NCBI RefSeq assembly: GCF_900143545.1
Contig: NZ_FREV01000009.1
Span: 20 to 64,019, forward strand
Reading direction: 5' to 3'
DNA length: 64,000 nt
Source: Loktanella sp. Alg231-35
Lineage (GTDB): Bacteria; Pseudomonadota; Alphaproteobacteria; Rhodobacterales; Rhodobacteraceae
Shown piece after piece: positions 52,355 through 61,941 of the stretch. Under the pieces are notes generated by a model. The model searched no databases and was not told the DNA's origin. It saw nothing but the letters and a program-made list of their open reading frames with translations. The translations under genes were made by a program, and so were the position numbers. Each line of letters starts with the position of its first letter. Within the stretch, counting starts at the first letter, position 1.

Positions 52355-52372
52355 GCGGCTTACTTAAGCCGC
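52355..52372. terminator. Possible bidirectional hairpin between the Lrp gene and the ABC-like gene
   Basis: GCGGCTTA-CT-TAAGCCGC, an eight-base stem located between two convergent genes and overlapping the stop of the ABC-like gene at 52364. No T-run follows on either strand, so termination strength is uncertain. Confidence 0.4.
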
Positions 52373-53926
52373 TGACCTTCCCGGTGGTATTACTACAAAA
52401 TGGATATCAGGGCGCTGTGTCGCGCGACGCCCAATGATGATGATCGTGCTTTCAACGACGGTGCGCAGTTGATCGATCAGCAACATGGCGTCAGGCTCGC
52501 CAGCTAACCTTGCGGTATCCACGACGATCAGGTCAGGTTTGGACAGGGCGACCCGTGTCAGGTCAATCCTTAGTCCTTGCGCGGTGTTTACGTTATGCGC
52601 GCCCTCAGAAATGCGCGTCATCAACGCATCAGCGTCGCGCGACAAAAGATCCGATAGGCCAAAGTGCTTTGCCATCCGCAGGATCGCGTCATCTTTGGGG
52701 CGCCGCGGGCTGCCCAGTGTCAATACGCGCCGCAGACTTCCCTGAATGGCAAGTGGGGTTTTGTCGACAAAGCCAATCCTTGGGATGTACTTGCATTGCC
52801 CATCATAGAGAATGGTCCAACCCTTCGGGTCATCCAATCCTGCGATTGCTCGGGCAAGTCTTGATCTTTCGCTCAGATCACCCCCGCTGAGTTCAACCGT
52901 TGTGCCAGCCGCAATACTGATGGCGGGTAACCGCGTGCTTTGCGCGTCCTCTATTTCTACCGAAACCGGGGCACCCCATCGCTTTGTGCGGCGCAGTTTG
53001 CTGTTGTTTGACAGTAACCTAAGCGCCTTATCCCGCGCGATACGCCACGCGCTGAACTGATCCCAAGCCTGCGCGAGATCGCGTAGCGGCAGCGCCAGAA
53101 TGGCAAGCATGGACAAAGCCGCAGCAACAGTGCCTGTCGGAAGTTGCGACGTTGTCGCAATCCAAAGTGTGCCAACACCGGCAAGCGCTAGGCCAAGCTG
53201 CGGTATGGTGGTCAGCGTCCCTGCGCGCCAAGCACGGGCGGTCGCATCAACCCGCAGCTGTTGTCCCTGAGCATTCAGAGCATCGAGTTCTTTCGTGGTC
53301 CGCCCCATCAAATCCAACAGCGGCGCCACGGCGATACGTTCGATCATCGCAATCGAGATGTTGGCCCGCCTGCCGCGGAGGGTTTGGTGCAGAATATCAA
53401 ATCCATACGCCGCCGCAGCCATGGCAAGCATTGTGATCACGAGGATGCTGACGCTGACCTTTGCAATTTGCGGATCCAGTAGCCACAGGGTGAAGCCAGC
53501 ACCCGGTAGAATGAAAGCCGCCGCGATGACACGTGGCATCCCTTGGCCGAACCAGTTACGCGCCGCCGTCAGATCACCGACAAAGCGCAGCGACAGCGCC
53601 CCTAATCGGCGGCGTTGCAGCTCAGAGTACCGCATCCCGGCAAGATGCGCATAAAGCGTGATCCGCAGACTGTTGGCATAGCTCTGGCCGATCCTCTCGG
53701 ATGTTGTCCTGATCAGGACCTCCAAGCAGGAAACAGCAATGCCGACTCCGATGAGTTTGATCATCGTCCAACCCGCAAGGTCTTCACCTACGTGAATTGC
53801 CGCAAAGGCCTCGCGCGTGGCAAAGACCCCAACCCCCAGAAAAAGCGCCTGCAGGATGCCCAGAAAAGGCAGAGTGACCGCATCAAAGACGCGGTCATCC
53901 TTTAGCAAGACTGGCAGCTGTTTCAC
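52364..53926 (-). CDS. ABC-exporter-like protein with a degenerate ATPase domain
   Basis: A 520-residue protein. Residues 1-300 form an ABC exporter-type membrane domain with six hydrophobic segments (for example VTLPFLGILQALFLGVGVFA). The C-terminal 200 residues have an ABC ATPase outline but the active site is lost. Walker A reads SGGDLSERSRLARA, without the GKS/T lysine. Walker B is LIVVDTARLAGEPDA, with Asp kept but the catalytic Glu replaced by Thr. A signature-like AHNVNTAQGLRIDLTRVALS is weak. It probably does not hydrolyse ATP. A GTG start at 53926 overlaps the stop of the P-loop gene (GTGA). Confidence 0.72.
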   Translation of the reverse strand: MKQLPVLLKDDRVFDAVTLPFLGILQALFLGVGVFATREAFAAIHVGEDLAGWTMIKLIGVGIAVSCLEVLIRTTSERIGQSYANSLRITLYAHLAGMRYSELQRRRLGALSLRFVGDLTAARNWFGQGMPRVIAAAFILPGAGFTLWLLDPQIAKVSVSILVITMLAMAAAAYGFDILHQTLRGRRANISIAMIERIAVAPLLDLMGRTTKELDALNAQGQQLRVDATARAWRAGTLTTIPQLGLALAGVGTLWIATTSQLPTGTVAAALSMLAILALPLRDLAQAWDQFSAWRIARDKALRLLSNNSKLRRTKRWGAPVSVEIEDAQSTRLPAISIAAGTTVELSGGDLSERSRLARAIAGLDDPKGWTILYDGQCKYIPRIGFVDKTPLAIQGSLRRVLTLGSPRRPKDDAILRMAKHFGLSDLLSRDADALMTRISEGAHNVNTAQGLRIDLTRVALSKPDLIVVDTARLAGEPDAMLLIDQLRTVVESTIIIIGRRATQRPDIHFVVIPPGRSAA

Positions 53927-55008
53927 GCGGCACCGCGCATGTTGGACTGACGCAGGTGAGCGGCCGTCAGTTCGGTGACAACAGTCTGATCCCAAAGCTC
54001 TTCGCGGGTCACGATAGGCAAGCCGCTGACGTCCGCTGCTTCTTTTGCGCCTAGCGGCGAGCAGCTGACTTTGCCTGAAATTGCGAACGGACGCAGACCG
54101 TAGCGTTCCAACACCATCACACCGCCCATCGCACTAAGCGCATCAGGTGCTGCGAACAGGATGCCATCGAGACGGTTCTTGATCCGCGAGCCTTCCAGAA
54201 TGGCACGTGTTTCTTGTTGGAACACACCGTCCGCAATCTCAACGACAACCATGTTGGCGCCATTTGCAGCAGCGGTGGCGACAAGCGTATCAAATCCTTC
54301 TTCGATACGCTCAAGCGGCATCTTAAAGGTCGTGGCCATGCCGGCGTCAGTGAAATCTGTGACTGGCACACCCGCGTCATCGAATGCGTTAAAGTCACCA
54401 AATGCGCCTGTACCAGTAGCCTTAATACCAGCGACATCAAAACCAGCGCGCTGCAAACCGTGTGCTAGGCTGACCGCCGCAGTTGTCTTGCCAGAGTTCA
54501 TTGACGCGCCGAACACACCAATGACCGTGACATCATTGTTTTTGGGTAATTTTGGCAAGGCGTAATCTGCCACGTTCATGACTTGATCAGTGGCGTTCTT
54601 CAAAAGGCCAATCGGAAGCAGCTTTGTTGGATCGTCCATGCGCATGTGCGCCGCTTCGACTACACCCACAATACCGCCACCTGCGGCAAGTTCGATTGGT
54701 GCATCGGTGATTTCTGCGCGGCAGAGAAACTGATCTGGCGCATAACGATCACCCAAGCACACAACGACAAGGTCGCCGGGATAGGTGATCGAACCACGAC
54801 GGTCAGCAAGTTGGATACGTCTGTGATGGCCGATTTCAAGGATTTGGCAAAGTACGAGGTCGCCGGCGACCGCATCCTTGTAGTTCTTTGATAGGCCCGC
54901 CAAGTCGTCGCGGTCGACGCGACGGGTCGTGAAGGCCCACTTCGCGCCAGCGATCAGGCGGGCCGTTGCTGTTTTGTCGTGCATGGTAGGGGGTAGTTGA
55001 GCAGTCAT
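53923..55008 (-). CDS. SIMIBI-class P-loop NTPase of unknown function (DUF1611-like)
   Basis: A 361-residue protein. Residues 1-140 are beta-rich and unlike any family I recognise. From about residue 160 comes a P-loop domain with VFGASMNSGKTTAAVSLA, a G-x5-GKT loop as in dethiobiotin synthetase, MobB and DUF1611 proteins. It is followed by a GIKATGTGAFGDF segment, where such enzymes bind substrate, and MVVVEIADGVFQ, an acidic Walker-B-like strand. The nucleotide site looks intact. Its stop overlaps the GTG of the ABC-like gene lacking a working ATPase, suggesting the two proteins cooperate. Divergent from DUF4956/VTC. Confidence 0.7.
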   Translation of the reverse strand: MTAQLPPTMHDKTATARLIAGAKWAFTTRRVDRDDLAGLSKNYKDAVAGDLVLCQILEIGHHRRIQLADRRGSITYPGDLVVVCLGDRYAPDQFLCRAEITDAPIELAAGGGIVGVVEAAHMRMDDPTKLLPIGLLKNATDQVMNVADYALPKLPKNNDVTVIGVFGASMNSGKTTAAVSLAHGLQRAGFDVAGIKATGTGAFGDFNAFDDAGVPVTDFTDAGMATTFKMPLERIEEGFDTLVATAAANGANMVVVEIADGVFQQETRAILEGSRIKNRLDGILFAAPDALSAMGGVMVLERYGLRPFAISGKVSCSPLGAKEAADVSGLPIVTREELWDQTVVTELTAAHLRQSNMRGAA

Positions 55009-55553
55009 TGGATTTTCCTTCGGTGCATATCTGTCATGAACCCAATCTGACGCATGAAGGTGACGGTGGTTTTTCTAGCGCGTGAACAAGTGATGAACAG
55101 TTGGATGAACAAACCATGACGCGGGCGGTTTTCTCTTCCCTGCCATACTTAGATGGCCTGCCGTTGTAAGATTTCCGCCTTTGGGTCAGCGTGTTCGCCG
55201 ACAGAGGAGGGCAACAATTTGGGGGGTCCGGTATTACGCAGAACAGTCTATCGGGATAGGCGCCGCCCTTGTTCACGGATCGTTTGCCCCCTTGCTTTGT
55301 GACAACAAGGATGAGCGATTGTTGCGAAGCGTTCAAACACACTGCGGACACGGACGGCAGACCGGGTCTTCATCTGGGCTGAACCAGCGGTGGAGGAGAA
55401 TTCTATCGCCAACCCCTGAAACCCGGCTTGTCATCGAATATTCACAAAACTTTTACATAGCGATAATTCCTCATTCAGCGCAGGTTCAGGCGCAAACATT
55501 AGGAATTGATCCAGCGGCTGGCCAATCAAGGACGGCGATCAAGGATCAATACA
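55009..55553. promoter_or_regulatory. Divergent control region between the P-loop gene and DUF4956/VTC
   Basis: A 545-base gap without a convincing gene. It includes three direct TGAACA repeats at 55083, 55094 and 55106 and an AT-rich stretch at 55440-55480 that is a plausible promoter for the DUF4956 gene. Frames open across it on both strands have no family resemblance. Confidence 0.5.
55083..55111. promoter_or_regulatory. Three phased TGAACA direct repeats
   Basis: TGAACA occurs at 55083-55088, 55094-55099 and 55106-55111, spaced 11 and 12 bases apart, that is about one helical turn. This is the arrangement that OmpR/PhoB-family response regulators bind. The site is 75-103 bases upstream of the P-loop gene, and an OmpR-family regulator is encoded at 58758. 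Confidence 0.45.
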
Positions 55554-56129
55554 ATGCTCGAAGAAATTCTCGCCTCAGAAACACCCATTCGGTTCGTCAT
55601 CAACGCATTGGCGATGATGATATTGGTTTTTGGACTTTATTATCGTCGTTACCGCGACAAGGAACTGGTGACCGCTGCGTCACTCTTTAACGTATTCGCC
55701 TTTGGTGTGCTGACTGTATTGTCGTCCGTCGAATTCAGTCTCGCCGCAGGGTTTGGGCTTTTCGCCATCCTTGCGTTGTTCACGCTAAGATCAGAACAGA
55801 TATCCAAAGTTGAGATCACATACTTCTTCGGCTCGATTGCGATAGCTGTCATTTGTTCGATTCAAGGCACAGAGCTCGCATTTGTCGGGGTCATTGTCTC
55901 GTTGGTTCTCATCGGTGCTTGGGCCCTGGATCATCCGCGCATTCTGCAATCCGCCGACGGCGTGAAAATCACACTCGACAAGATCGATCCGCATGCCTTG
56001 TCGGACCCCGACGCGATGCGCCGCGACTTGTCCACGCGCTTGGGTGTCGACGTTATGTCCTACCAGATTACCGCGCTCGACTACATCAACGATATGGCGC
56101 GTATCAACGTGTTCTTCCGCAAAACCTGA
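55554..56129 (+). CDS. DUF4956 membrane protein
   Basis: A 191-residue protein with four predicted membrane segments in residues 12-130 (IRFVINALAMMILVFGLYY; FNVFAFGVLTVLSSVEFSLA; FFGSIAIAVICSI; FVGVIVSLVLIGAWAL). A soluble C-terminal domain follows (VKITLDKIDPHAL...YINDMARINVFF). DUF4956 proteins are commonly encoded beside bacterial VTC-type polyphosphate polymerases, as here. Their function is not established. An AAGGATC site precedes the ATG at 55554. The VTC gene follows after 22 bases. Confidence 0.82.
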   Translation: MLEEILASETPIRFVINALAMMILVFGLYYRRYRDKELVTAASLFNVFAFGVLTVLSSVEFSLAAGFGLFAILALFTLRSEQISKVEITYFFGSIAIAVICSIQGTELAFVGVIVSLVLIGAWALDHPRILQSADGVKITLDKIDPHALSDPDAMRRDLSTRLGVDVMSYQITALDYINDMARINVFFRKT

Positions 56130-56151
56130 CTCTGACCCTAGGGAGACCGAC

Positions 56152-56919
56152 ATGGATAATTCCATCGCAAAAACGCTTGCCGACTTCGAAACGATTGGCC
56201 TTGCAGAATTGAACAGCAAGGCCGCGATGCTAGAGCGGCTCGACAATAAATACATCCTGCCCGCCACTGCCTTTCGGCCCGCTTTGGCCCGGTTCGCAGC
56301 GCATTTCGATGTTCTTGAGATCGACGAGAAGCGCGCCTTCACCTATGCGACCAAATACTATGACGACGCAGAGTTGCGCGGTTACTACGACCATCATCAG
56401 GGGCGCCGAAAGCGCTGCAAGGTCAGAGTGCGTGAATACGTCGACGCGGGCTTCAGCTATCTGGAGGTCAAACTGAAGGACAAGCGCAAGGTGACGGTCA
56501 AGAAGCGCCTAAAGGTCGATGACAAAGCGAACCCTTTGAACGCGTCGGCGGTAGAATTCATCGAAGATAACTATCGCGATCTCTACGCACAGAACTTTGG
56601 CAAAACACTGCATCCGGTGATTGCCATGCAGTATCAGCGCATCACACTGGTCGCCAGGCAAGGTGGGGAGCGCATGACGATCGATACCAGTCTCCGGTTC
56701 GAAGCCAATGGGATCGTTCGGGCGGTTCAGCCCGACATGTTTATTGTCGAGACAAAATCGGCGCGGGGCAACGGGATTGCCGACAGAATTCTCAGAAGTC
56801 TGCACCTTCATCCGACGAAACGCTGCTCAAAATACTGCATCGGCATGGCTACAACGGGCGCTGTGCAACGACAAAACAAGTTCCTGCCCGCACTAAAGAA
56901 ACTCCGTCTTGCGCACTGA
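56152..56919 (+). CDS. VTC-domain polyphosphate polymerase
   Basis: A 255-residue soluble protein of the VTC family, the tunnel-fold polymerase that makes polyphosphate from nucleoside triphosphates. The N-terminus has LERLDNKYILP, the usual R-x-D-x-K-Y entry with basic tunnel residues. Paired basic and acidic positions along the barrel follow: RKRCKVRVREY, YLEVKLKDKRKVTVKKR, and the C-terminal VETKSARG with the metal-binding Glu. No SPX domain is present, as in other bacterial forms. An AGGGAG site precedes the ATG. Operon partner of DUF4956. Confidence 0.85.
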   Translation: MDNSIAKTLADFETIGLAELNSKAAMLERLDNKYILPATAFRPALARFAAHFDVLEIDEKRAFTYATKYYDDAELRGYYDHHQGRRKRCKVRVREYVDAGFSYLEVKLKDKRKVTVKKRLKVDDKANPLNASAVEFIEDNYRDLYAQNFGKTLHPVIAMQYQRITLVARQGGERMTIDTSLRFEANGIVRAVQPDMFIVETKSARGNGIADRILRSLHLHPTKRCSKYCIGMATTGAVQRQNKFLPALKKLRLAH

Positions 56920-57090
56920 CCCGCCCATTGGGGCTGTAAGTGACGCAGGGACCGGATCGAAGTGCCGAGATGAAAGGTTAAGCCAATACTAATACCGGAG
57001 CGGAATTGGCCCCGAATGTGCGTGGTTCAGCCAGAAGTTAGTTAAGGCATTCATCAAATGTTCATATTTCTGACAAGCGTCGTTAATGAT

Positions 57091-57204
57091 ATGAGCATAG
57101 AAGAGATTAATCGGGCAACATCAGCGGCATCTTCGTTTGAATTTAGATGTTGGGGCAAGATGGCTCGCAGAGCCTTCATGAGTAGAGGCGCGACGTATCA
57201 ATGA
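57091..57204 (+). CDS. Possible 37-residue leader peptide overlapping the kinase start (weak)
   Basis: A short open frame whose TGA overlaps the ATG of the histidine kinase gene (ATGA). No ribosome-binding site is apparent before its ATG and the peptide has no recognisable features. It could serve translational coupling or be chance; the kinase's own ribosome-binding site is also poor. Confidence 0.2.
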   Translation: MSIEEINRATSAASSFEFRCWGKMARRAFMSRGATYQ

Positions 57205-58748
57205 AGATCACACATGTGGTAAATGGTTTTGCTGCCGTTATGTTAGTGACGGCGATGGTCAGTGTTTCAGTGGCATCATGGGCTGCTAGAAAAAGCGACT
57301 ACCACAATCACCGAATTTCTCTGGCTCACTCATCCTATGAATATCATCTGGCACTGACCGCTGATACATATCTGACGTTCAAACGGTTTGGGGATCTGCT
57401 GCTTATCGGGGACCCAGGTGAGATTGAAGACCTGGAGTTGTTGGCAACTCAACTGCGGGGTCATATCGCAAATATACGCCAAACCATCGAGCAAGAAATC
57501 CTACTGGTCGGGGATGAAGAGCTTGAGGAACTTGAACTACTCGCGCGTGTCGAGGAACTCATTGAAGAGTTGATCGCCCAGTTTCAAACCATTCTGGCGC
57601 TTGAAGACCTCGGAGACGAACGCACGAACTGGCGAGAGGTCTCTCAACTTCTTAGCAATGGTCTAAAGAATGACTTTCGCAGTTTGATCGAAATTGCGCT
57701 GACTGAGGAACAAGAAGAGGTCGCTGAAACGGAAGCCGAAGCGCGTTATCAGATGATGATCGTGAGGCGGATGTCGTTTGGCCTTGGCATGCTGTCTCTC
57801 TTCTTGACAGTCTTCGCACTCCATATCTTTCGTCGCAAATTCACCCGCCCCCTCAAGAGGCTTTTGGTTGGGGTGCGTGGCTTTGCTGACGGTGACTTTC
57901 GGTCACGCATCAAGCTTCGGGGCCGCAGTGAGCTATCAGAGATTTCGATGGTGCTCGACGAAATGGCCGAAGTTGTTGCAGATAAGACCGAGGCGCTGAC
58001 GCTCGAGAATGAAAAGTTGGATGCGGCTGTCAAAGAAAGAACAAAGACGCTTGAGCACCTCTTGGCCGAGGCACGTCAATCCGAGGTGAACCGGCGCCAG
58101 CTTTTGGCAGATGTCAGCCACGAATTGCGGACACCGCTGACTGTTATTCAGGGTGAAAGTGATATCGCATTGCGTGGGAGCGATAAAACATCGGCCGAAT
58201 ACAAGGAGGCGCTGCGCAGGGCGCGCACAGCGGCGACGCATACTGCCAATCTCGTCAACGATCTTCTTTTCATGTCGCGTAACGAAGCTGGCGTCCTGCG
58301 GCTTTCGCGGGAACCGATTGATGTGGTCGAACTTCTGAATGAGGTCATTGCCATTTCTGGTACAGATGCAAAGCTCACCCCATCGCAACAGCCCGTTTTC
58401 GTGAATGCAGATCGGCAACGCATAAGACAGGCTGTTTTGGCGTTGCTGCACAATGCCGAACATCACGGCGGCGAGGATATCCAGGTCGCACTTAATGAGT
58501 ATCCCGACAATGTAGAAATCTCTATCTCTGACGATGGGTCGGGAATGGCGGATGATGAAAAAAAGCACGCCTTTGAACGTTTCTTTCGCGGTTCAAATGC
58601 TACGACGCGCTACGCTGATGGGCTGGGGCTGGGATTGCCCATTGTCAGGTCCATTGCAGAGGCACATGGTGGCTACACGCGGATAAACGACCGCCCCGAA
58701 GGTGGTACAATAGTTTCAGTCTCACTCCCCCGAATACGCGAGAGCTAA
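57201..58748 (+). CDS. Sensor histidine kinase with acidic periplasmic domain
   Basis: A 515-residue membrane histidine kinase. Two membrane segments (about 8-29 and 190-211) frame a periplasmic domain that is strongly helical and very Glu-rich (DEELEELELLARVEELIEEL). A HAMP domain follows (about 212-265), then the DHp domain with the phospho-His in VSHELRTPLTVIQGE near residue 308. The CA domain has N (LLHNAEHHGG), G1 (DDGSGM), F (FERFF) and G2 (GLGLGLPIV) boxes. It is transcribed with the response regulator nine bases downstream. The ligand is unknown; neighbours suggest phosphate or polyphosphate stress. Confidence 0.93.
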   Translation: MKITHVVNGFAAVMLVTAMVSVSVASWAARKSDYHNHRISLAHSSYEYHLALTADTYLTFKRFGDLLLIGDPGEIEDLELLATQLRGHIANIRQTIEQEILLVGDEELEELELLARVEELIEELIAQFQTILALEDLGDERTNWREVSQLLSNGLKNDFRSLIEIALTEEQEEVAETEAEARYQMMIVRRMSFGLGMLSLFLTVFALHIFRRKFTRPLKRLLVGVRGFADGDFRSRIKLRGRSELSEISMVLDEMAEVVADKTEALTLENEKLDAAVKERTKTLEHLLAEARQSEVNRRQLLADVSHELRTPLTVIQGESDIALRGSDKTSAEYKEALRRARTAATHTANLVNDLLFMSRNEAGVLRLSREPIDVVELLNEVIAISGTDAKLTPSQQPVFVNADRQRIRQAVLALLHNAEHHGGEDIQVALNEYPDNVEISISDDGSGMADDEKKHAFERFFRGSNATTRYADGLGLGLPIVRSIAEAHGGYTRINDRPEGGTIVSVSLPRIRES

Positions 58749-58757
58749 GGTGCCGTT

Positions 58758-59429
58758 GTGAATATTTTATTGGTTGAAGATGAAGAACGGGTCGCTGATT
58801 TCGTCCGTCGTGGCCTGAAGGCAGACGGCTATAGCGTCGAGCACGCCAACAGTGGTGAAATGGCCCTTGAATTTCTGCTGTTGCGTGAATTTGATGTCGT
58901 TGTGTTGGACCTTATGTTGCCCGGCATTTCAGGCAGCGATGTTTGCCGCAAGATCCGGGCACGAGGGGATCATACACCTGTTTTGATGCTGACCGCACTG
59001 GATTCCACAGATGAACGTGTCGCTGGACTGCGGTTGGGCGCCGACGACTATTTGCCAAAACCCTTCGATTTCGATGAGCTGGTCGCCCGCATTGAAGCCC
59101 TGAATAGGCGCAAGACAGGCTATGCGATCAAAGATGGTGAAGAGCTCATCGTACATAACGGCCTGTCATTTGATCCCCGCGCTCTGGAGTTTTTTGTAGA
59201 CGGCCACGCGGTCGGATTGTCCAGCAAAGAGCGTGAGCTTGCACTGTTGTTGCTAAAGAATGTCGGTCGTGCGTTAAGCCGTGAGCGCATCCTGAATGCC
59301 GTCTGGGGGACGCAGGCCGATCCAATGACAAATATTGTGGATGTCTATATTGGGCGACTGCGTAAGAAATTTGGTGACGCCGACATCAAGATTGTCACGG
59401 TCAGGGGCGCCGGTTACCGGCTAGATTGA
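58758..59429 (+). CDS. OmpR/PhoB-family response regulator
   Basis: A 223-residue response regulator. The receiver domain has the acidic pair (VEDEE), the phospho-Asp in VVLDLMLPG and the Lys in YLPKPFDFDEL. The C-terminal winged helix (about 125-223) is of OmpR type, with LSSKERELALLLLKNVGRALSRERIL and VDVYIGRLRKKFGD. A GTG start at 58758 is used. Direct TGAACA repeats upstream of the divergent P-loop gene are candidate sites for it. Confidence 0.93.
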   Translation: MNILLVEDEERVADFVRRGLKADGYSVEHANSGEMALEFLLLREFDVVVLDLMLPGISGSDVCRKIRARGDHTPVLMLTALDSTDERVAGLRLGADDYLPKPFDFDELVARIEALNRRKTGYAIKDGEELIVHNGLSFDPRALEFFVDGHAVGLSSKERELALLLLKNVGRALSRERILNAVWGTQADPMTNIVDVYIGRLRKKFGDADIKIVTVRGAGYRLD

Positions 59430-59644: not shown

Positions 59645-59935
59645 TTGAAAGAAGCCGACGACATCGAAGGCATGAACCGCTGGACCTACTTCATCTACGC
59701 GTTGGTGTGCGTGTCTATGCACTGGAACAACTTCCTGAAGCCGTTGATCGTAACAAACTCTTGTGAAACGCGGCCTTTGACAGTTGACTTGTCAACCTTT
59801 GGCGCGCCGGAAAACGACGTCGAATTCAGCATCATTTCCGCCACGACATGTATGTCGGGTGCGCCATTGTTGATTGCCTTCTTGATCTTCCAGCGTCAGT
59901 TTGTGCGGGCGTTCTTGCGCCCGGGAATCAAATGA
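59645..59935 (+). pseudogene. Remnant of a sugar/glycerol-3-phosphate-type ABC permease (MalG/UgpE C-terminus)
   Basis: A 96-residue piece. EADDIEGMNRWTYF matches the EAA-loop helix of carbohydrate ABC permeases, and WNNFLKPLIVTNSCETRPLTVDLSTFGA and LIAFLIFQRQFVRAFLRPGIK match the family's C-terminus (each cited from the same frame, in part). The preceding four membrane helices are missing and the segment between the EAA loop and WNNF is shorter than normal, so there is both truncation and an internal deletion. A phosphoesterase remnant follows with an ATGA overlap, as in intact operons of this type. Confidence 0.75.
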
Positions 59936-60234
59936 CGGCAATCTTACACATCACGGATACGCATATCGTAGCTGAAGGCAAAATGGTTTCTGGTAAGCTC
60001 GACGCGGCGGATACGCTGCAATGGCTGGTTGCCAGGCTTTACTCAATCCGTGATCAAATTGGGTCGATTGATGCAGTTCTGATCACCGGTGACCTCGGCG
60101 ATGATGGCATTGCCCAAGGCTATGCCCGTTTCCTTGATCTGATGGCACCGTTGGACCTGCCGTTTCATGCGACCCTCGGAAGCAATATCGTTGAAACGAC
60201 GGCTTTCAAACAATTCGGATCGGACCAGTGGTAG
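59932..60234 (+). pseudogene. Truncated calcineurin-like phosphoesterase
   Basis: A 100-residue remnant starting LHITDTHIVAEG (metal ligands Asp and His) and containing VLITGDLGDDG (the GDxxDG block). It stops where the GNHD/E block should be: LPFHATLGSNIVETTAFK replaces LPxHxxPGNHD. The catalytic C-terminal half, about 150 residues, is missing. The gene was evidently part of an ABC transporter-phosphodiesterase operon that has decayed. Confidence 0.75.
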
Positions 60235-60285
60235 GATCAGGCCCATTTCCATTCCAGTCGCCACACTTAACAGAAAGCAGACACG

Positions 60286-61941
60286 GTGAGTGAACCGCAC
60301 GCCCTTCAAATTCTAATCCATATCGCTGGCGCTGCCGCTTTGTTGATTTGGGCCGTGCGTTTGGTGCGCACCGGCGTCGAGCGCGGGTTTGCCGCACAGA
60401 TGCGTTTCTGGTTGCGTCATTCGGCCAATAACCGTCTGCTTGCGGCCGGGACCGGAATGGGGGCAGCTGTCCTGTTGCAAAGTTCCACAGCGGTTGCCGT
60501 CTTGGTGTCAAATTTCGTTTCCAAGGGCAGTCTCGCAACGGCAGCAGGGTTGGCGATCTTGTTAGGGGCCGATGTCGGATCCGCGGTCGTAACGCAGCTC
60601 TTGATGGTACGCCAACCGCTTCTGATCCCGCTTCTGCTCGTGATTGGGATTGCGATCTTTCTGCGCGGTGAAGGCAGCAACACACGTCAGATTGGCCGGA
60701 TCATGATCGGGCTTGCACTCATTTTCGTCTCACTGGATATGATCCGCGGCGCGACCGATCCGATGATATCACACCCCGGCACACAGGCTGTTATGGCCTA
60801 TCTGGGTCGCGATCTATTCACCGCTTTCATCATCGGGGCCGTATTTGCATGGGGTGTCCATTCAAGCGTCGCGGCGGTGCTGCTGTTCGTCACCTTGGCG
60901 GGGCAATCAATCTTGCCGGTTCCAGCTGCCGCAGCAATGATTCTGGGGGCCAATTTAGGGGGCGGTTTCATCGCATTTGTTCTGACATATTCCGCGCCGC
61001 TAGCGTCGCGAAGGATGGTCATGGCAAACCTCATCCTGCGGGGGGGCGGTGCCGCGCTGACGGTTCTTTTGATTGCGGGGGTGCCGGACCTCATGGCCCA
61101 ACTTGGTGCGACGCCCGCTCGGCAGGCCATAAACCTGCACCTTGGTTTTAATTTGGCTTTGGCGATCGTCGCCCTTCCTTTTGTCGCACCGATAACATCC
61201 GGACTTTCCCTTTTCATGGTTGAAAACACCGCCCCGAATGGCACTTTGGATGTCACCAGTGCGCTTGACCCCGCCCTGCTGGAGCGACCGCAGCGGGCAA
61301 TAGATTGTGCGGCACGCGAACTGCTCACGATGGGCCAGAAGATCGAACAGTTGCTCATCGCGGTCCAACCGCTTTATGACAAATGGAATGCGGCCACCGC
61401 CAGTGTCATCGAGGATCAAAACAGAGCGATCAAGCAGACCCATCTGGACATCAAACTATACCTTGCCCGCCTCGGAAAAACGGGAATGGACGAGGATCTG
61501 AGCCGACGGTCGATGGAGCTTGCTTCGATTTCATCCAGCCTGGAAGCGGCGTCAGATGCGATCACGCGGATCATGCTCGATCTTGCCAAACGTCTCGACG
61601 CGCAAAAGCTGCAATTCTCACCACAAGGTCGCGAAGAAATCAGTGACTTTTCTGATCGGGTGCAGGGCAACATTCAATTGGCCCTGAATGTGATGATGAA
61701 CCAAAATCCCGCTGAAGCCCGTGCGTTGGTTGCAGCGAAGGAAAAAGTACGCAAGGTCGAACAAAAACTACAGCGCAGTCACATTGGTCGGCTACGCGAA
61801 GGGCTCGCCGAAAGTATCGAGACCAGTAACATTCACCAAGAGACCCTGCGCGCGCTCAAACAAATCAACACAGCCTTTTCTATGGTGGGATATCCGATCC
61901 TTTTGAAGTCCGGAGACTTGCTAAAAAGTAGGCTTTCTTAG
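60286..61941 (+). CDS. Na+/phosphate cotransporter with PhoU-like C-terminal domain
   Basis: A 551-residue NptA/YjbB-type transporter. Two PF02690-type repeats span residues 1-320. The first has the family QSSTA motif (LLQSSTAVAVL, about residue 64). In the second repeat the Gln is His (WGVHSSVAAVLL, about 190). The C-terminal 220 residues form a PhoU-like helical domain (IDCAARELLTMGQKIEQLL and later heptads). The start is GTG at 60286. It probably exports or balances phosphate, consistent with the polyphosphate polymerase five genes upstream. Confidence 0.86.
   Translation: MSEPHALQILIHIAGAAALLIWAVRLVRTGVERGFAAQMRFWLRHSANNRLLAAGTGMGAAVLLQSSTAVAVLVSNFVSKGSLATAAGLAILLGADVGSAVVTQLLMVRQPLLIPLLLVIGIAIFLRGEGSNTRQIGRIMIGLALIFVSLDMIRGATDPMISHPGTQAVMAYLGRDLFTAFIIGAVFAWGVHSSVAAVLLFVTLAGQSILPVPAAAAMILGANLGGGFIAFVLTYSAPLASRRMVMANLILRGGGAALTVLLIAGVPDLMAQLGATPARQAINLHLGFNLALAIVALPFVAPITSGLSLFMVENTAPNGTLDVTSALDPALLERPQRAIDCAARELLTMGQKIEQLLIAVQPLYDKWNAATASVIEDQNRAIKQTHLDIKLYLARLGKTGMDEDLSRRSMELASISSSLEAASDAITRIMLDLAKRLDAQKLQFSPQGREEISDFSDRVQGNIQLALNVMMNQNPAEARALVAAKEKVRKVEQKLQRSHIGRLREGLAESIETSNIHQETLRALKQINTAFSMVGYPILLKSGDLLKSRLS

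Follow-up and report, generated by a model that had tools for sequence, protein, structure and literature searches.

The DNA analysed here is a 64,000-nucleotide stretch of Loktanella sp. Alg231-35 (contig NZ_FREV01000009.1; the whole stretch is called the window), which carries a P-loop protein gene coupled to the gene of a degenerate ABC exporter, next to genes for a VTC-domain protein and a two-component system. The P-loop protein (53923..55008, minus strand) is of the SIMIBI type, resembles BioD and DUF1611, and has an N-terminal beta domain of its own and an intact Walker A motif (GASMNSGKTT). Its neighbor (52364..53926, minus strand) was assigned from profile matches, alignments and a predicted structure as a CydC/MsbA-like half-size ABC exporter with a degenerate nucleotide-binding domain (NBD), a pseudo-ATPase. 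Across a 545-bp region, a second unit diverges on the plus strand: a DUF4956 membrane protein (PF16316; 55554..56129), scoring 161.7 bits against a cut-off of 30.6, and a VTC-domain, polyphosphate polymerase-like protein (PF09359; 56152..56919), scoring 109 bits against 23. An earlier note on this DNA had proposed these four genes as one set, with the last two diverging from a shared control region, and both profile scores and the 545-bp spacing bear that layout out. The note omitted two genes 3' of VTC on the plus strand, for a sensor histidine kinase (HK; 57201..58748) with an acidic sensor region and an OmpR/PhoB-type response regulator (RR; 58758..59429), and the gene set reaches 59429. 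The receiver and winged-helix models (PF00072, PF00486) and the HisKA and HATPase_c models (PF00512, PF02518) all score above cut-off in this pair, whose link to a putative DNA box is the strongest new result of the analysis.

The two-component pair and its putative DNA box

The P-loop protein, used as a query, finds matches in 7 of 60 relatives' genomes and in 24 of 295 genomes of the same family (4 of them weak), and a profile finds matches in 24 of 385 genomes of the class (several weak), the window genome being counted each time. Among named genomes, at least 473 of at least 594 candidate stretches were confirmed, and the best 80 (L059-L138) make up the locus set used below; 57 of these have at least 6 kb on each side. 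They come mostly from Alphaproteobacteria, with others from Nitrosomonas, Thauera, Hydrogenophaga, Brenneria, a Chromatiaceae and a deltaproteobacterial metagenome-assembled genome (MAG). One match assigned to the Phycisphaeraceae (L118) is a 3.1-kb contig whose upstream match is identical to the Chromatiaceae MAG L115, and it may be mis-binned. Judged from these sequences, the P-loop/ABC unit is widespread yet patchy, mostly in Pseudomonadota. Phage carriage was ruled out, as 0 of 162 viral candidate stretches were confirmed, and so was carriage mainly on plasmids, where 8 of 72,556 records hold a P-loop relative.

An ABC gene of the family accompanies the P-loop gene in 74 of the 80 loci. 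Partners found less often are the kinase (45 loci), the response regulator (42), an alpha/beta hydrolase (42), a PF05118 oxygenase (2OG; 20) and an EF-hand/Asp-rich protein (15); DUF4956 and VTC lie within the fetched flanks in 9 and 8. The commonest combinations are ABC with hydrolase (21 loci), oxygenase, hydrolase, ABC, HK and RR together (12), and ABC with HK and RR (9), and the order oxygenase-hydrolase-P-loop-ABC-HK-RR recurs. By this census the core of the cassette is the P-loop protein plus the ABC protein, with DUF4956/VTC as a minority partner. Because DUF4956 and VTC appear in so few loci, the four-gene set of the earlier note is not the conserved unit, and homologues of the coupled genes are found largely without the pair (71 of 80 loci lack DUF4956 in their flanks).

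From 46 upstream regions, taken from the window and 21 loci of its clade, we identified the dyad GTTCAT-N5-GTTCAT; the best dyads occur in up to 23 of the 46 regions, whereas five shuffled sets reach 3 at most. The 80 loci and the window together contain 66 sites with no more than one mismatch, compared with 5 in one mononucleotide shuffle of each. At a threshold of 10 of 12 matching positions, the box lies 5' of the P-loop gene in 41 of the 45 loci with HK/RR, mostly at a near-constant distance, but in only 2 of the 35 others, and random windows of the same loci contain it in 56 of 1277 cases. When the 21 discovery loci are left out, the counts become 20 of 24 and 2 of 35. The two HK/RR-less loci with a box (L106 and L133) lie on contigs that end 774 and 602 bp past the P-loop gene, and in a fresh set of 20 loci the box was found in none of the 14 without an HK of the family. 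Boxes also precede EF-hand genes in cassette loci and, at the same threshold, the oxygenase gene in 15 of 24 rows that have one (L170 and L114 being one genome).

In the window, three overlapping putative sites occupy 55082..55121 (minus strand) 5' of the P-loop gene: a GTTCAT-N6-GTTCAT with 12/12 matches at 55093-55110, an 11/12 site at 55082-55098 and a 10/12 site at 55105-55121. A further putative box, ATTCAT-N5-GTTCAT (11/12), lies at 57049..57065 (plus strand) 5' of the kinase gene, and a variant, TGTCAT-N5-ATTCAC, lies at 55429..55445 (plus strand) 5' of DUF4956. Across the window's genome, 16 matches with at most one mismatch were found against 3 in a reversed control; two are the window sites, 11 of the other 14 fall inside open reading frames (ORFs) of more than 150 residues, and no further regulon member could be assigned. 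Because the box comes and goes with the kinase and regulator, it is most simply read as the putative site of that response regulator. Since boxes also precede all three gene groups in the window, P-loop/ABC, HK/RR and DUF4956-VTC probably form one regulon.

Membership of DUF4956/VTC draws on its occurrence and on the variant box. Within the family, 5 of the 24 genomes with the P-loop gene have DUF4956, against 10 of the 271 without it (Fisher p 0.004, the genomes being related). One of the five (G255) has just a distant P-loop relative, and without the four weak P-loop genomes the counts are 4 of 20 and 11 of 275 (p 0.013); of the five, G000 and G015 have DUF4956 adjoining the P-loop gene. The variant TGTCAT-N5-GTTCAT lies 118-128 bp 5' of DUF4956 in all eight complete cassette-linked copies, and it also precedes an unlinked second EF-hand/DUF4956/VTC copy in G015 (L167). 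The window's site matches it at 10 of 12 positions, 125 bp 5' of DUF4956, and one of 500 shuffles did as well. With a DUF4956 fragment at L136 that lacks the variant, the cassette-type total is 10 of 11, window included. At DUF4956 genes from P-loop-negative genomes it was absent (9/12 or fewer) in 7 of 7, 7 of the 10 such genomes having been fetched and G206 and G225 being just 71-73% complete; it was likewise absent at 3 of 3 other unlinked copies of P-loop-positive genomes. Because the cassette-box variant precedes DUF4956 in cassette-bearing genomes, the window among them, DUF4956/VTC probably is a functional part of the set. The idea that ABC, P-loop protein, DUF4956 and VTC belong together largely failed as a matter of co-occurrence and is probable by way of the variant box.

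In the VTC domain, K33, K90, R92, R94, E105, K107, K109, K117, R119, E200, K202 and K227 are invariant in 15 rows, and the window protein has these conserved residues; basic and acidic residues of this sort line the VTC active site. The second EF-hand/DUF4956/VTC set of G015 (L167:2440-3012), on a contig other than that of the P-loop gene, bears both versions of the box.

The P-loop protein and the degenerate exporter

The GASMNSGKTT motif starts at residue 167 of the window's P-loop protein. Across 55 sequences of the family, G167, M170, N171, G173, K174 and T175 are invariant, which upholds the intact P-loop described in the earlier note; K196, T198-T200, E257 and A259-G261 are invariant as well, the last group presumably resembling the acidic motif of BioD-type ligases. 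No Pfam or NCBIfam model scores above cut-off on this protein. Its predicted structure (predicted local distance difference test, pLDDT, 94.1; predicted TM-score, pTM, 0.91) combines the N-terminal beta domain with a SIMIBI-type domain, and the closest structural matches are DUF1611 (2g0t, Z 16.7), followed by CTP synthase, Ffh and BioD (Z about 15-16). These matches span mainly residues 157-359, and few reach the first 150-residue beta domain. The motif is invariant whether the neighboring ABC protein is intact or degenerate, suggesting that the P-loop protein does a job of its own instead of replacing an NBD.

Divergent relatives of the P-loop protein were also seen. Two loci (L049:8326-9336 and L050:8404-9414) hold a distant subfamily (GTSMSAGKTT and GTSMSSGKTT) with no adjoining ABC gene, and at L045:8066-9889 the P-loop protein has a segment at its C terminus that matches the N-terminal part of a Mutator-family transposase (PF00872, 44 bits). 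A relative among the plasmid matches (H6, Microvirga) is annotated 'transposase'.

The longest ABC ORF runs from 52364 to 53995 on the minus strand with a TTG start; the true start is likely the GTG at 53926 (residue 24 of the long ORF), which overlaps the TGA stop of the P-loop gene, and residues 1-23 have a pLDDT below 50 in the predicted structure. In alignments of 23 and 74 sequences, the window protein has SGGDLSERS at the Walker A position, without the lysine, and VVDTARL at Walker B, with the aspartate present and the glutamate absent, as the earlier note had seen. The same alignments show VNTAQ instead of the LSGGQ signature and no H-loop histidine. The transmembrane domain (TMD; PF00664) scores 37.8 bits against a cut-off of 28, and the model (pLDDT 91.2) has a complete exporter fold that matches TmrAB 6rai_B (Z 27.7, root-mean-square deviation, rmsd, 3.6, 500 residues) and CydDC 7zdt (Z 27.0), both matches spanning about 490-500 residues.

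Among 73 scorable ABC members, window included, Walker A is present in 36 and absent in 37. A quick tree built from transmembrane columns only requires at least 8 changes of Walker A state, 5 of them forced by well-supported branches, and degenerate members form large groups, such as one of 14 scorable rows in a roseobacter group. Pairs of degenerate proteins give an omega of 0.08-0.31 in the NBD (9 pairs) and 0.10-0.16 in the TMD (8 scorable pairs; the ninth, L059/L060, is saturated), and six intact pairs give 0.08-0.32 and 0.06-0.26, several pairs in this analysis having dS above 1. Low omega in degenerate pairs, an ATP site lost several times in a protein that was nevertheless retained, and the confidently predicted full exporter fold together rule out pseudogene decay. 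Relatives with an intact Walker A, which the earlier note would have taken as a sign of simple decay, do exist (for example, L061), and decay is excluded all the same. The alignments and omega values thus indicate that the ABC protein of this branch is a retained pseudo-ATPase, its ATP site lost repeatedly under purifying selection. A dedicated partner for the ABC protein was also sought in the window's genome and rejected, as the next three matches share just 23-25% identity over part of their length; an ordinary unlinked exporter could still serve as partner.

These data bear on three alternatives. A chance neighborhood, in which the ABC gene is decaying and DUF4956/VTC is a passing neighbor, fits the many related loci without DUF4956 in their flanks, but purifying selection on degenerate ABCs, the full exporter fold and the fixed spacing between the variant box and DUF4956 all contradict it, and we consider it very improbable. 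The earlier note had suggested that an ATPase-dead ABC channel takes its power or gating from the P-loop protein, with the whole set making and exporting polyphosphate. The genes do adjoin and overlap (the longest ABC ORF overlaps the P-loop gene or follows it by no more than 10 bp in 62 of 73 loci), and in the window the P-loop is intact while the ATP site of the ABC protein is lost. The P-loop is, however, equally invariant beside the 36 ABCs that retain Walker A, the gene stands without an ABC gene in 4 of the 57 full-flank loci, and VTC accompanies it in 8 of 80. Moreover, its fold is common to small-molecule ligases and signal recognition particle (SRP)-type GTPases, and a shared fold shows no function. 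The powering claim is accordingly unsupported, and the proposal as a whole improbable.

In BceAB-BceS modules, ABC proteins serve a kinase as receptor or scaffold, and a third alternative gives the degenerate ABC protein such a role in the membrane, with transport given up. This fits a protein that selection has kept although its ATP site was lost repeatedly, and it fits the position of the kinase gene after the ABC gene in many loci. Against it, 15 of 36 loci with a degenerate ABC gene have no HK, and 4 loci retain the P-loop gene and HK/RR but no ABC gene. Because intact and degenerate pairs show similar omega in both domains, there is also no sign of a changed selection regime. We regard this role as unlikely.

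Acidic neighbors and a proposed envelope response

ORFs with at least 11 Asp in 20 residues lie within 4 kb of the P-loop gene in 28 of the 80 loci, and 5 of the 20 fresh loci have Asp-rich ORFs likewise. Their density per kb falls from 0.0465 (0-4 kb) to 0.0149 (4-7 kb) and 0.0024 (7-10 kb). They are of several kinds, including EF-hand proteins with Asp tails and subtilases with Asp tracts (signal peptides by eye). A subtilase is near the cassette in 16 loci (L079, L081-L084, L089, L094, L100, L102, L103, L107, L109, L115, L119, L123 and L125), 15 of which have a poly-Asp tract, and an ECF sigma factor (14 of 80 loci) and an anti-sigma-like gene (15 of 80) are often found alongside. The sensor region of the kinase has a net charge of -4 to -27 in 44 rows and -20 in the window. 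Asp-rich proteins, an acidic sensor and a predicted polyphosphate polymerase in a probable regulon suggest a polyanion/cation theme. Small proteins consisting largely of Asp/Glu repeats stand beside the cassette in another alphaproteobacterial family (L174:3249-3797 and L176:13429-13890).

We tentatively favor the reading, at somewhat less than an even chance, that the window holds one branch of a conserved envelope cassette, controlled by a two-component system, that pairs a SIMIBI enzyme/exporter unit with polyanion production. In such a scheme the kinase, with its strongly acidic sensor, would detect cationic or envelope stress, and the regulator would then induce the P-loop enzyme and the production of a cation-binding polyanion: polyphosphate from VTC-DUF4956 here, and Asp-rich secreted proteins in relatives. 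By its fold, in the BioD/CTP synthase/DUF1611 group, the P-loop enzyme may be ATP-dependent and activate or modify an acyl group or a small molecule; the product would originally have been exported or flipped by the ABC protein. In this branch the ABC protein would work without its own ATPase, through another partner, by facilitated movement, or as a receptor or scaffold.

Several observations weigh against this cassette reading. In the fresh set, just 2 of 5 scorable HK-bearing loci (L170 and L176) have the box before the P-loop gene, and L170 comes from the same genome as L114 and is not a new genome. L171 and L172 carry the box before the oxygenase gene and not before the P-loop gene, L174 has none before the P-loop gene, and L173 was too short to score; L117, whose flanks lack HK/RR, shows a 10/12 box before its oxygenase gene. 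The variant box is suggestive rather than independent proof, because its consensus was drawn partly from the same DUF4956 regions, which themselves share descent. The window has no Asp-rich ORF; in its genome neither an EF-hand Asp-rich protein nor a hydrolase relative was found, in searches made without a positive control, and an Asp-rich subtilase gave just a weak, partial match. Finally, regulator binding, substrate and signal are all deduced from sequence.

A different view is that the P-loop protein, hydrolase and PF05118 oxygenase tailor a metabolite or lipid exported by the ABC protein, with VTC/DUF4956 a late regulatory recruit outside the pathway. The recurrent order oxygenase-hydrolase-P-loop-ABC-HK-RR favors this, as do the BioD/CTP synthase-like fold of the P-loop protein, a weak match of the oxygenase relative to LpxO and the scores of an intact ABC relative, best to CydC and then to MsbA. 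In addition, the oxygenase gene occurs in 19 of 36 loci whose ABC protein retains Walker A and in 1 of 36 whose ABC protein is degenerate, counts that are not phylogenetically independent. The window nevertheless keeps the P-loop protein and ABC protein though no hydrolase relative was found in the genome and, by eye, no oxygenase-like ORF adjoins the cassette (a genome-wide search for the latter was not made). Such tailoring is possible, although we hold it to be on the unlikely side. A broader form of the polyanion idea, which we think has little chance of being right, is a new envelope-response class in which a single two-component system turns on the making of a polyanion. In some lineages this would be polyphosphate, made through VTC-DUF4956, and in others secreted poly-aspartate proteins, with the Asp-rich subtilase and the PF05118 aspartate-hydroxylase-type enzyme. 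The P-loop protein would there activate carboxylates at the expense of ATP, with the acidic chain or its ligand as substrate, and the ABC protein would function without its own ATPase.

Other features stand apart from these readings. Downstream in the window (59848-61941) are a short, seemingly truncated metallophosphoesterase-like ORF (by eye) and, following it, a Na/Pi cotransporter gene (PF02690 and PhoU), relatives of which were found in none of 28 cassette loci searched. A scan for promoters and terminators yielded fewer sites than were found in the shuffled controls. In six loci from three lineages (L079, L081, L082, L084, L093 and L123; four of these loci are close kin), genes for a glycerate kinase and a citrate/sulfate-type transporter occur together near the P-loop gene.

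Relation to known systems

For the P-loop family, which has no Pfam or NCBIfam model of its own, there is now a genomic context along with a DNA box and a probable regulator, which open a direct way to its signal and product. Bacterial VTC/DUF4956, whose regulation is hardly described in the open literature searched, is placed under a testable two-component system. In the ABC series, the ATP site was lost several times under selection beside intact relatives, so that an ATPase-free function becomes testable.

An anti-phage system was rejected as a counterpart: a PADLOC search (E 0.01) gave no match for the window's P-loop, ABC, DUF4956 and VTC proteins, and the best match of the intact relative L100, mad3, covers the ATPase part only. 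The top structural match for the P-loop domain is DUF1611 (PF07755; 2g0t TM0796, 2obn Ava_3511), with 2g0t aligning over 171 residues at an rmsd of 3.2, and two plasmid relatives are labelled DUF1611. CTP synthase, Ffh and BioD lie within about 1 Z unit of it, and the window protein differs in scoring 16.1 bits on PF07755 against a cut-off of 25 and in its first 150 residues. The gene dgcN encodes a DUF1611 protein. PMC12363236 treats dgcN in passages that do not state this family membership. BioD and MobB share the fold group and give weak profile matches at the P-loop (BioD, E 0.0014; MobB, about 4e-5 for the relatives L057 and L100), whereas the P-loop protein falls far below the family cut-offs and has another N-terminal domain and gene neighborhood.

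CydDC, TmrAB and MsbA share the complete exporter fold of the ABC protein, and L105, a relative with an intact ATP site, scores 180.9 bits on the CydC model and 164.2 on that of MsbA. Unlike them, the family scores below equivalog cut-offs, has one half-transporter gene per locus and has lost its ATP site repeatedly. Bacterial VTC/DUF4956 pairs, often found with CotH, likewise have the two genes adjacent, and both are complete in the window. A search of the window genome with positive controls found no CotH, which rules out a CotH-type polyphosphate cluster, and a further difference from such pairs is the two-component-type box before DUF4956 in cassette-bearing genomes. Overall, the conserved arrangement is real and apparently undescribed in the open literature searched, yet made of known kinds of parts.

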